64,000 bases of DNA from Microcyclospora pomicola (lineage: Eukaryota; Ascomycota; Dothideomycetes; Capnodiales): assembly GCA_002786065.1 (NCBI GenBank), contig NHNY01000020.1, positions 365,253 through 429,252 of the forward strand, written 5' to 3'. Below are positions 60,967 to 64,000 of this stretch, piece by piece. Position 1 is the first letter of the stretch; each line of letters starts with the position of its first letter. The translations under genes were made by a program, and so were the position numbers. The notes under the pieces were generated by a model that saw only the letters and a list, made by a program, of their open reading frames with translations, was not told the origin of the DNA and did no database searches.

Positions 60967-62148
60967 TCAGAGACCGAATAGCATCTTGTCGAGCGCTATG
61001 GCTTTGCTGTCTCTGACTTTCCGCATTTTCGATTGCTCGGTAGTCGTTGCTGGATGGGTGGGCCTAGGACTCGATGGTTGACTCTGCGTCGGTCTAGATG
61101 TTTGACCCCGTTCGAAACAGGTGAACGAGATAGGTTCCAAGGTATCTTGCGTGCTTTGTCCTACGCGAACATCAAGCATTGGCAATCCGGCAGTCTTGAG
61201 ACTCCGCGTACTGCATCCATGAATCATGAAGGCATACACAAGGTCAGACCAGCTTATCCGAGACGCTAGACCATCACCTGGACTCCTGTTGCGAGAGTCC
61301 CGGGCTGAAGGTCCCGACCTTGTCACAGCGTTGTGTTCACTGTCGTCCAGAATCTTCTGCAATTTTTTGACACATACAGCTTGTGATCGCTCCGACCATC
61401 CTTGCACATGCATTACTGTCGTGGAGCTACCGCTCACTGGAAACCCACAGTCCGCAAAGCATATCGTGTACAACGCTGGAAAGGTCTCGAGATAGTGCAA
61501 TGCCCACTCAGTGACTTTATGCTGGCCACGGAGCATGATGACCCGAAGATGCTGGAAAGCAGCGTGCTCGTTCACTTCCTCCGACCACGTTCTGATCACT
61601 CGGTCACTGAGCAAGCTGGTTGCGCCGCATGTGCGCGAGTCAGGTGTAGAAATGGTAAGAGCTTGTAGGTTCTTCAAGCGAGAAACATATATCAGAGCCG
61701 TTGAGCTTAGAGTGTGATTCTGTATGGTAAGTCTCGTCAGCCATGTATCTGCAGGACTGTTTGATGCATCAATCGCTTGTGGAAGTATATCACAACTTTC
61801 GCATCCTGTTCTCCATATATGGGTAAAGCTCGCATCAGCAAGCTCGGTACGCGTGAACATCTTCCAGACTTGTAGGCTCTTGAGTCCGGCCTCGTTCACA
61901 GCATGCCAAATTTGCTGCACGAGACGATGAGGGAGATTGCTCATCGAAGATTCATCCATTCGCTCAAGATTGCAAAGGATTCTCCGCATCGCTGTCTCTT
62001 GAAGCGAGTTGGTGCCTCGCACTGGCGGAAGATATCTCGGTTTCTGACCGCGACATTGGGAAGGCGAAAAGTTGCGGCATTTGTGCTTGCTGCCACTCAC
62101 GACCGTTTCTTTGTATACTAGACCTGAGTCTTCGGCAAAATGAAGCAT
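60967..62148 (-). CDS. Hypothetical protein, F-box/LRR-like layout
   Basis: Uninterrupted frame of 393 codons from the first Met. The start is uncertain: residues 1-50 do not resemble the rest, and a later Met, at MRRILCNLER (61989) or MSNLPHRLVQ (61944), could be the true start, since NLPHRLVQQIWHAV looks like the first helix of a fungal F-box-like domain. Downstream are short repeating segments with leucine-rich spacing (WLTRLTIQNHTLSS, SRLKNLQALTIS, FQHLRVIMLRGQ, YLETFPALYTICFADCGF), as in fungal F-box/LRR-like hypothetical proteins. The C-terminus is polar, Pro/Ser/Thr-rich, ending KALDKMLFGL-like. If the F-box reading is right, it would be an SCF substrate adaptor; this is weakly supported. 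It lies next to the transposon, but its frame is intact. Confidence 0.6.
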   Translation of the reverse strand: MLHFAEDSGLVYKETVVSGSKHKCRNFSPSQCRGQKPRYLPPVRGTNSLQETAMRRILCNLERMDESSMSNLPHRLVQQIWHAVNEAGLKSLQVWKMFTRTELADASFTHIWRTGCESCDILPQAIDASNSPADTWLTRLTIQNHTLSSTALIYVSRLKNLQALTISTPDSRTCGATSLLSDRVIRTWSEEVNEHAAFQHLRVIMLRGQHKVTEWALHYLETFPALYTICFADCGFPVSGSSTTVMHVQGWSERSQAVCVKKLQKILDDSEHNAVTRSGPSARDSRNRSPGDGLASRISWSDLVYAFMIHGCSTRSLKTAGLPMLDVRVGQSTQDTLEPISFTCFERGQTSRPTQSQPSSPRPTHPATTTEQSKMRKVRDSKAIALDKMLFGL

Positions 62149-62276
62149 TATCGCATCGGTGAGCCGTACAATCTTTTACACGAGCGTACCATGAAAGTGA
62201 GGTTACAGGAGAATGCGCTAGAGGCACGTCTCCACGTGATAGAACAGCTCTGCTCTACTCTACTAACGCGGAGGTC

Positions 62277-62307
62277 GGGGGTGTGAAATGGACGGGGGTG
62301 TGAAATG
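62277..62307. repeat. Two 14-bp direct repeats at the transposon end
   Basis: gggggtgtgaaatg occurs at 62277-62290 and 62294-62307, spaced 17 bp apart start to start. Paired subterminal repeats at a transposon end are candidate transposase-binding sites; the right-hand end is not visible. Confidence 0.8.
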
Positions 62308-62379
62308 CCAGATTCCAAGCTGCCACCTTCAATGCATGATAACTTCATAACCACTTAATGAAAAGGCTTGATTCTTGGT

Positions 62380-63984
62380 TTATATGATAGCTAAGAGCTG
62401 TGGCAATAGCTGTTTACAAGATCTTCTGGTGTGGCCTTGTGTGTGGCATGTGGTGCATGTTGGTGCCTTTCTGGCTGGCTTTTCAACTTCTGGTTCTCCC
62501 TCAACTTCTACCAATTGAGTAGGCATGTTTGATACCTGTTCAACTGACAGTGGAATGTCTGATCTGATTGGGCCTCTCTTCCTCTTCTTTCTGATGTGAA
62601 AGGCCTCATTAGCCTGTTGTAGATCATGGACCTGTGCCTGGAACAAGGCAGCTGTTGTAGCCATAATTGTGGCTCCCTTTGACAACTGCTCAATCATGTC
62701 ATATATGGGGGTTGGTGAGCTACTTTGGTGCCTCTGGAGCCTGTGTTTAATGCTTGTAGTCTGCCTAGTGACTTGCAATGCATTATGTGGTGTCTGGGGC
62801 TGCCATGAATGGCTTGATGACTGACTTGATGGCAGAGATATTGGCAATGGATCAAGCCTAGCTAAAACAACCTCTGGATTGAATGGATTGATGCCTGCTC
62901 CTCTGAAACCTGCTTGGATGTTGGCCTTGGTAATTGCCTGTGTATGTGCCATATAGAAACTGTGGATAAATGCCAGTTTATCTATGTGGAATATGTGCCT
63001 CTGGATCAGGCCCTGGTTCTGTTTTGAAAAGGCCTGTTTCAATGGACCAAAACAACCAACATCCATAGGCTGTAATATATGAGATGAATGTGGTGGCATC
63101 CATAACAATATGATGCCTTGATCCTCACAGAATTGCCTAAATTCTGAGGTGGTATGGCTACCATGATTATCCAGAATCAGTAGCCTCTTAGATCCAATTG
63201 TATATGCCTTTGTATGCCTGTCAAAGTGCTGGATCCACTGATATCCAATTTGATCTGTTGTCCAGCCATTTGGGCTCACACTGAATACCCAGTCTGGTGG
63301 TAGGCCTTCAAACCATGCCTTGTTGTATTCCTTGCCTTTGAAGATGATAAATACAGGTATGGCTCTGCCAGTTGCACTGCCACCTTGTATGAGGGTGATC
63401 CACTCAGTATTAGTTGGCTTAATCTGCTTAGGTCTCCCTTCTCCCTCTGTGGCAGTGACTACCTTGGAGGCAGATATCTGGCCCATTTGAAAGCCAGTTT
63501 CATCAAAGTTGTAGATGTCTTCATTCTGGATGCCATACTTGTTGATTGTGTTCCTCACAAGGTCAAACCAGCCTTGTATGATCTGTGGTTGCTCACATAG
63601 CCTTCTCTGGCATTCATATGCCCTACCAAGTCTCACACTGAGCTGTGGTGTCCTTTTTATGAATGTATTGGCCCATTTCATGCCAACTGGTGGTGCACCT
63701 TTGGCCTGGCATATTGAGTCTGCCATGCCTTTGATTATGCCAATTGATGGGGATAATCCCTGCCTATCCAGTTCCAGAATCTTGTTTATTATCACCATCT
63801 CTTCATGTAAATCCAGCCTCTTGTTTTTGACCTTGTAATCTGCCTTTGAAGGTGTTCCATTGATTCTTCTCCAGAGTGTGGTTACAGGGACTTGGTAGGC
63901 AGCTGCACAGGCATTGATGGACTGAAATTGGCCTTGCTTGAAAGCCTGCATTGCAAGGAGAATACTACCTTCTTTTGAGGCCAT
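62380..63984 (-). CDS. Pogo/Fot1-family transposase with C-terminal zinc knuckle
   Basis: 534 residues, no internal stop. N-terminal helix-turn-helix of the pogo/Psq type (AMQAFKQGQFQSINACAAAY, TTLWRRINGT), then a CENP-B-like second DNA-binding region (residues 55-115). The catalytic core has Asp161 in NFDETGFQMG, Asp272 in LILDNHGSH and Asp308 in LQPMDVGCFGPLKQ, a DD35D triad of the Tc1/mariner superfamily. The C-terminus holds a CCHC zinc knuckle, CTTCHTQGHTRRSC (Cys510, Cys513, His518, Cys523), preceded by a basic KKRKRG stretch that may be a nuclear localisation signal. In this family the enzyme excises the element and inserts it at TA. The reading frame looks functional. Arg is encoded only by AGA/AGG because the gene has no CpG at all, unlike host genes. 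The start Met is 16 nt from the window end. Confidence 0.9.
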   Translation of the reverse strand: MASKEGSILLAMQAFKQGQFQSINACAAAYQVPVTTLWRRINGTPSKADYKVKNKRLDLHEEMVIINKILELDRQGLSPSIGIIKGMADSICQAKGAPPVGMKWANTFIKRTPQLSVRLGRAYECQRRLCEQPQIIQGWFDLVRNTINKYGIQNEDIYNFDETGFQMGQISASKVVTATEGEGRPKQIKPTNTEWITLIQGGSATGRAIPVFIIFKGKEYNKAWFEGLPPDWVFSVSPNGWTTDQIGYQWIQHFDRHTKAYTIGSKRLLILDNHGSHTTSEFRQFCEDQGIILLWMPPHSSHILQPMDVGCFGPLKQAFSKQNQGLIQRHIFHIDKLAFIHSFYMAHTQAITKANIQAGFRGAGINPFNPEVVLARLDPLPISLPSSQSSSHSWQPQTPHNALQVTRQTTSIKHRLQRHQSSSPTPIYDMIEQLSKGATIMATTAALFQAQVHDLQQANEAFHIRKKRKRGPIRSDIPLSVEQVSNMPTQLVEVEGEPEVEKPARKAPTCTTCHTQGHTRRSCKQLLPQLLAII

Positions 63985-64000
63985 AATGGATGAAATTGGT

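Follow-up and report, generated by a model that had tools for sequence, protein, structure and literature searches.

CpG-directed mutation of fungal transposable elements is on record in PMC4352252, PMC4165359, and PMC4014442. Tuber is named in this connection in PMC4352252, although CpG enrichment is given as absent for it in PMC4165359. For the transposable elements of Zymoseptoria tritici, PMC8016269 describes CG as the preferred sites of methylation, which are nevertheless not mutated at high rates. Among the open-access papers listed, as judged by title and opening abstract lines, no account of intact CpG-free fungal transposable elements was found.

The stretch of 64,000 nucleotides analyzed here (the window) forms the terminal part of contig C13 in a genome of 23.4 Mb and 58 contigs. 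The first-pass annotation had reported that its last 1,706 bases contain no CG dinucleotide, and this was confirmed by counting: positions 62295 to 64000 hold none, against 85.6 expected from base composition (Poisson 7e-38). TG and CA were described as abundant and are so, with observed/expected (o/e) ratios of 1.71 and 1.33. A general CpG deficit was looked for and is not present, the CpG o/e of the whole window being 0.93 and successive CpGs elsewhere in it lying no more than 193 bp apart. Codon usage taken from eight window ORFs was applied in 1,000 recodings of the 534-aa transposase encoded in the stretch, and each recoding contained at least 69 CpGs.

The element, designated pogo1, was delimited by comparison of 13 copies (L009-L020 and L024), which defined a unit of 1,825 bp with 49-bp TIRs and TA duplications. 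The window and the contig stop inside this unit, 90 bp before its other end, and the second TIR lies beyond the contig end. The TA target-site duplication is located at 62264..62265, and all 15 ends visible in the 13 copies have TA next to the TIR. The TIR on the 3' side of the transposase occupies 62266..62314 and contains four CpGs (62267, 62269, 62276, and 62293); the two TIRs agree over 49 bp. All 8 CpGs of the complete unit fall within the TIRs, and its 1,727-bp interior has 0 against 86.1 expected. Two earlier statements were corrected on this basis: the transposon is not devoid of CpG, and the DNA directly to the left of 62295 is not host DNA, since the element starts at 62266 and the four CpGs there belong to the TIR. 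The same TIR contains a tandem motif, GGGGGTGTGAAATG, present twice, every copy of which starts at the G of a CpG; these are perhaps two putative transposase sites. Outside the element, the neighboring 393-aa ORF on the reverse strand (60967..62148) is CpG-normal and matched no Pfam family at E 0.01.

The transposase gene (62380..63984, reverse strand) is intact and of pogo/Fot1 type. Its 534-codon frame is open, as had been claimed, and the product matches DDE_1 (PF03184) with an E value of 7.6e-34 and 117 bits against a cut-off of 22. None of D161, D272, and D308 varies among the 22 aligned proteins; we take them to be the catalytic triad, the third Asp lying about 34-36 residues past the second in pogo/Fot1 transposases. 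The reported retention of the catalytic residues is borne out to the extent that these three Asp residues are present. The N-terminal HTH region scored just below threshold for HTH_Tnp_Tc5 (22.1 bits, cut-off 22.2) and below it for HTH_psq (17.5, cut-off 20.4), and precomputed domains of these types occur in many of the listed relatives. A C-terminal CCHC motif (C510, C513, H518, and C523) was identified by eye; its three Cys are invariant and its His nearly so in 22 proteins, so that this zinc-knuckle motif is common to the aligned relatives and not unique to pogo1. All 28 Arg codons are AGA or AGG, again in agreement with the first reading, and at the 22 columns where 10 or more of the 14 aligned relatives carry Arg the protein has 15 Arg, 6 Lys, and 1 gap. 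From these sequence features pogo1 is classified as a DNA transposon of the pogo/Fot1 group, putatively autonomous and moving by cut-and-paste. As a transposon it is an ordinary member of that group; what is unusual is that intact elements show such a CpG pattern.

Seven copies of pogo1 are 100% identical, all at contig ends, four with one flank and three with the other. The assembly therefore broke on the repeat, and at least 4 insertions are supported; a count of seven intact copies would be too high. The complete identity may be that of an assembly consensus, and the identical copies at seven contig ends suggest recent pogo1 movement only. Six further copies carry many TAG/TAA stops, and their identity across the part that aligns is 83-92%. 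Relative to the intact unit, C is replaced by T in these six at 1,039 of 1,601 CpA, 12 of 993 CpC, 8 of 1,092 CpT, and 1 of 6 CpG sites. These RIPped copies likewise contain 0-2 CpGs in the aligned part, so the common ancestor was CpG-free there before RIP. Two of them (L016 and L017, 1,825 bp) were assembled inside contigs and are equally CpG-poor. The intact copies have a CA ratio of 1.71 and a TA ratio of 0.68, that is, they are without the CpA-RIP signature. Because the family is so heavily RIPped at CpA, CpG-freedom gives no protection from RIP, and the suggestion of a silencing-proof element finds no support in the present host.

The pattern is real, extreme, and wider than first claimed, for it extends to three intact families. 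The second, pogo2, is another intact pogo family with a 626-aa ORF, found at the ends of contigs C21, C33, C49, and C51; its open frame has 3 CpGs against 88.9 expected, and 9 of the 12 CpGs in the unit sit in two terminal stretches. The third is an intact Ty3/gypsy element located at contig ends or close to them (C30, C36, C38, and C50; in C30 and C38 it was checked to reach the contig end), with a gag of 379 aa and a pol of 1,358 aa that includes protease, RT, RNase H, and integrase domains; it contains 7 CpGs against 362.1 expected. On the opposite strand, 3' of pol in this CpG-free gypsy region, there is a 355-aa open frame (L052, 6552-7619, reverse) with a DUF3716 match (PF12511, E 7e-7). 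AGA/AGG accounts for 76 of 76 Arg codons in pol, 21 of 22 in gag, and 34 of 36 in pogo2, or 159 of 162 across the three families, against 93 of 412 in the eight window ORFs. Each of the four frames was also recoded 1,000 times; the lowest counts obtained ranged from 41 to 239 CpGs, against 0 to 4 observed.

Other repeats of the genome were then compared; the DNA examined covers 33 of 37 pogo-type matches, the other four being short fragments. The proposed comparison with other pogo families gave a divided answer. In group A (pogo1; L021, L022, L023, and L078; pogo2 with L026, L069, L074, L075, and L077) the CpG o/e is 0-0.13, as in the window element, whereas in group B (L070, L071, and L073; L028, L072, and L076) it is 0.94-1.20; the groups are defined by blastn links and not by a tree. 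RIPped copies occur in both groups and CpG status follows the group, and it is therefore inherited by lineage, independent of present RIP. One group B member, L028 on contig C43, has a pogo-type frame of 675 aa that is CpG-normal and shows no RIP; it has no near-identical copy among the listed matches and may be either a domesticated gene or an element that is still young.

CpG was measured at 12 loci of RIPped LTR relics, taken from 68 RVT_1 and 28 rve matches, and the o/e ratios were 0.56-1.14. The LTR family L034, L035, and L038 is intermediate, at about 0.6, between CpG-free and CpG-normal. Two DDE_3 (Tc1-like) relics gave 1.08 and 1.40, flanks included, and the RIPped repeats L048 and L049 retain CpG at 0.96 and 0.90. 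A search of the genome for Copia-type RVT_2 gave no match, and the controls gave no match either.

Contig ends were compared for 55 of 116 (2 read as N). The repeats found there include the CpG-free pogo1, pogo2, and gypsy elements as well as CpG-normal ones without RIP composition. The hAT element has a CpG o/e of 0.80-0.94; 850 bp of it, with a ratio of 0.80, are at least 99.88% identical at five contig ends, and its open frame is evident for the last 160 aa only. A histone-H3-bearing repeat is 100% identical over 1,000 bp at four contig starts and has a ratio of 1.07. In the copy at the start of C2 (L081), positions 304-738 of the forward strand hold a diverged gene that matches the Pfam core histone family (E 5e-26) and was judged H3-like by eye; C7, C12, and C30 begin with the identical repeat, which shows no RIP composition. 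Two more stretches of 385 and 484 bp are common to contig ends at 98.7 and 99.6% identity and lie in CpG-normal sequence. As the CpG-normal hAT and H3-bearing repeats have spread recently and without RIP composition, CpG-freedom is not required for spread here. The idea that it was needed for recent spread was accordingly rejected for the present genome, and the same two repeats speak further against a silencing-proof element.

Host mutation was assessed from C/T differences in seven diverged repeat pairs, which were picked by hand and are overlapping and not independent (L036, L048, and L067 were each used twice). Differences were found at 624 of 1785 CpA, 57 of 1533 CpG, 11 of 1444 CpC, and 24 of 2343 CpT sites. 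In these same non-independent pairs, CpG transitions are about 4 times as frequent as those at CpC/CpT (57/1533 against 35/3787; Fisher 4e-11) and about 9-fold below those at CpA. Host RIP was rejected as the cause of CpG loss, since it is CpA-directed, the intact copies lack its signature, and the RIPped L048 and L049 are CpG-normal. Three methylase loci are present in the host genome. The DIM-2-like protein is 64% identical to a protein filed under Quercus suber, which presumably comes from a fungal contaminant, and the next matches bear mostly Dothideomycete names (such as Meristemomyces and Zymoseptoria), which places the host roughly, among the Dothideomycetes. In the second, an SNF2 domain comes after the methylase, the arrangement of Dnmt5. 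The third, with one in-frame TAA within the matched stretch, may be RID-like, an assignment made by elimination only.

Interior CpG loss is complete in pogo1, spares the TIRs, is common to related families, was already present in the RIPped copies, and did not come from host RIP. Replacement of CpG by TpG and CpA through transitions is supported by the TG and CA excess and by codon endings. In the CpG-free elements, NCN codons end in A at a frequency of 0.49 and in G at 0.004, against 0.21 and 0.22 in the eight window ORFs, an excess and a loss that form the fingerprint of NCG to NCA transition. Four-fold C before G drops from 286 of 802 in the window ORFs to 1 of 343 in the CpG-free elements, and T rises; a similar T:A shift in host ORFs makes this test of the C|G junction not decisive. 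If a simple mutational equilibrium is assumed, which is a simplification, the pooled count of 10 CpGs against 537 would imply that CpG mutates about 54 times as readily. The excess of about 4-fold seen here is far smaller, and the process would thus have acted mainly elsewhere or earlier, or selection was added. As to the earlier proposal of a host with CpG-directed mutation, such mutation is seen in the repeat pairs but is too weak for the depletion. The earlier argument that random decay by itself cannot account for the pattern holds. Conversion of CGN to AGR is impossible by CpG transition, so the prevalence of AGR needs long time or selection. Together with the occurrence of only Arg, Lys, or a gap at the 22 conserved columns, it points either to purifying selection that has acted long enough to reach equilibrium or to CpG being selected against directly.

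The loss was probably caused by sustained CpG-directed mutation in past hosts or lineages, with the transposase kept by purifying selection. The pogo1 lineage would have lost all CpG outside its end repeats before the present copies spread, through methylation-coupled deamination or CpG-type RIP acting in former hosts or ancestral lineages. Purifying selection would have preserved the transposase by keeping Arg through AGR codons and by letting conserved Arg change to Lys only, and the TIR CpGs would have been kept by selection, presumably owing to transposase binding there. The many CpA sites would make pogo1 a good substrate for RIP, and the intact copies may be those that RIP has not reached. 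The methylation of CG without high mutation in Z. tritici (PMC8016269) counts against this reading.

Horizontal arrival from fungi that subject CpG to RIP or methylation, with the present host having no part in the loss and its RIP being a response, overlaps with past CpG-directed mutation, and the two are not mutually exclusive; taken for itself it is a possible but tentative explanation, and it is compatible with either CpG mutation or evasion. The bimodal distribution of CpG status by group within one genome argues for it, as do the intact copies without the CpA-RIP signature and the prediction, in PMC4165359, that Uncinocarpus reesii is RIPped at CG. Against it, identity to the pogo1 transposase is at most 64% over the full length and reaches 69% in partial matches (best 120 of 1,339 relatives), and the closest listed gypsy relatives include one at 63% in the Dothideomycete Aureobasidium pullulans, with no near-identical copy elsewhere among the listed matches. 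Identity to proteins filed under Quercus suber is 63% for pogo1 and 64% for the host DIM-2-like protein, and these about equal values give no sign of recent horizontal transfer. DNA of pogo1 relatives was sought in viral contigs; none was found by protein, and a search with the alignment gave 32 pattern matches, among them a single relative. This is L068, which is 38% identical and has one stop in its frame; its CpG ratio of 0.49, against 1.07-1.18 in the flanks, speaks for past CpG-directed mutation. The gypsy polyprotein had no match in viral contigs, and a search of genome contigs for pogo1 relatives gave 44 pattern matches and 0 relatives.

A competing reading that stays in play, though rather doubtful, is that the elements evade silencing, that is, that CG methylation by Dim2/Dnmt5 silences elements and CpG-free variants escape heritable methylation and out-replicate the others, the TIR CpGs being needed by the transposase. 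The host does encode DIM-2-like, Dnmt5-like (SNF2), and third methylases, depletion is near total in unrelated elements, and the AGR share of 159/162 goes beyond CpG transitions alone. These points are opposed by the recent spread of the CpG-normal hAT (five ends) and H3-bearing (four starts) repeats and by a rough hand count in which CpG-free families make up 3 of the 5 recent ones and 2 of the 11 dead-only ones, a difference that is not significant (Fisher 0.24). Just as doubtful is the broader proposal that CpG-free transposable elements are adapted escape forms, in which, where fungi methylate or mutate the CpG of repeats, only elements recoded to be without CpG except at essential transposase-binding sites stay active, DNA transposons and retrotransposons converge, and the armor fails in a CpA-RIPping fungus, leaving CpA-rich RIP targets. 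If it were true, the dinucleotide make-up of a transposable element would record a host defense that its lineage survived.

Ongoing CpG decay in the present host, with repeats methylated at CpG and losing it and active copies under purifying selection, is improbable. It can draw on the roughly 4-fold CpG transition excess (from the seven non-independent pairs) and the DIM-2-like and Dnmt5-like genes, but that effect is far below what an o/e of 0.02 needs, and the LTR and Tc1-like relics and pogo group B retain CpG; host-wide decay of transposable elements was therefore rejected as the main cause. A CpG-unspecific AT-rich or biased codon usage, or an artefact of collapsed repeats (the intact copies do sit at contig ends, and their sequence could be a consensus of collapsed repeats), has a negligible probability and is already refuted by a GpC ratio of 1.18 in 62295-64000 beside a CpG of 0, by 1,000 recodings of the transposase with its own third-base composition that each gave at least 54 CpGs, and by the same CpG-poor sequence in the RIPped copies inside contigs.

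Dead CpG-poor relics of transposable elements are expected where CpG is methylated; intact recent elements of two unrelated classes, with CpG at 0.00-0.03 of the expected value, differ from these. The presence of CpG-free beside CpG-normal elements in one genome separates the history of transposable element lineages from the present host, and CpG mutation, CpA-RIP, and selection can be measured on the same sequences. Retention of CpG mainly in the TIRs likely marks functional sites.

Compared with known systems, pogo1 resembles pogo/Fot1 (Tc1/mariner) elements in its DDE_1 domain, the 35 residues between the second and third Asp, its TIRs, the TA duplication, and the single frame, and differs from them in an interior without CpG and in the confinement of CpG to the TIRs. 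Its dead copies show the CpA to TpA signature of Pezizomycotina RIP; the CpG loss is not a product of host RIP, for CpA sites differ about 9 times as often as CpG sites in the seven repeat pairs. The host resembles Z. tritici (PMC8016269) in being a Dothideomycete and in its types of methylase genes. The change of CpG to TpG/CpA is like the CpG-directed mutation of transposable elements described for Microbotryum and Tuber (PMC4352252), U. reesii (PMC4165359), and Rhizoctonia AG8 (PMC4014442). In those fungi CpG loss marks mutated copies or heterozygous sites, whereas in the present genome CpG-freedom extends to entire elements whose genes are open, in a host that RIPs at CpA.
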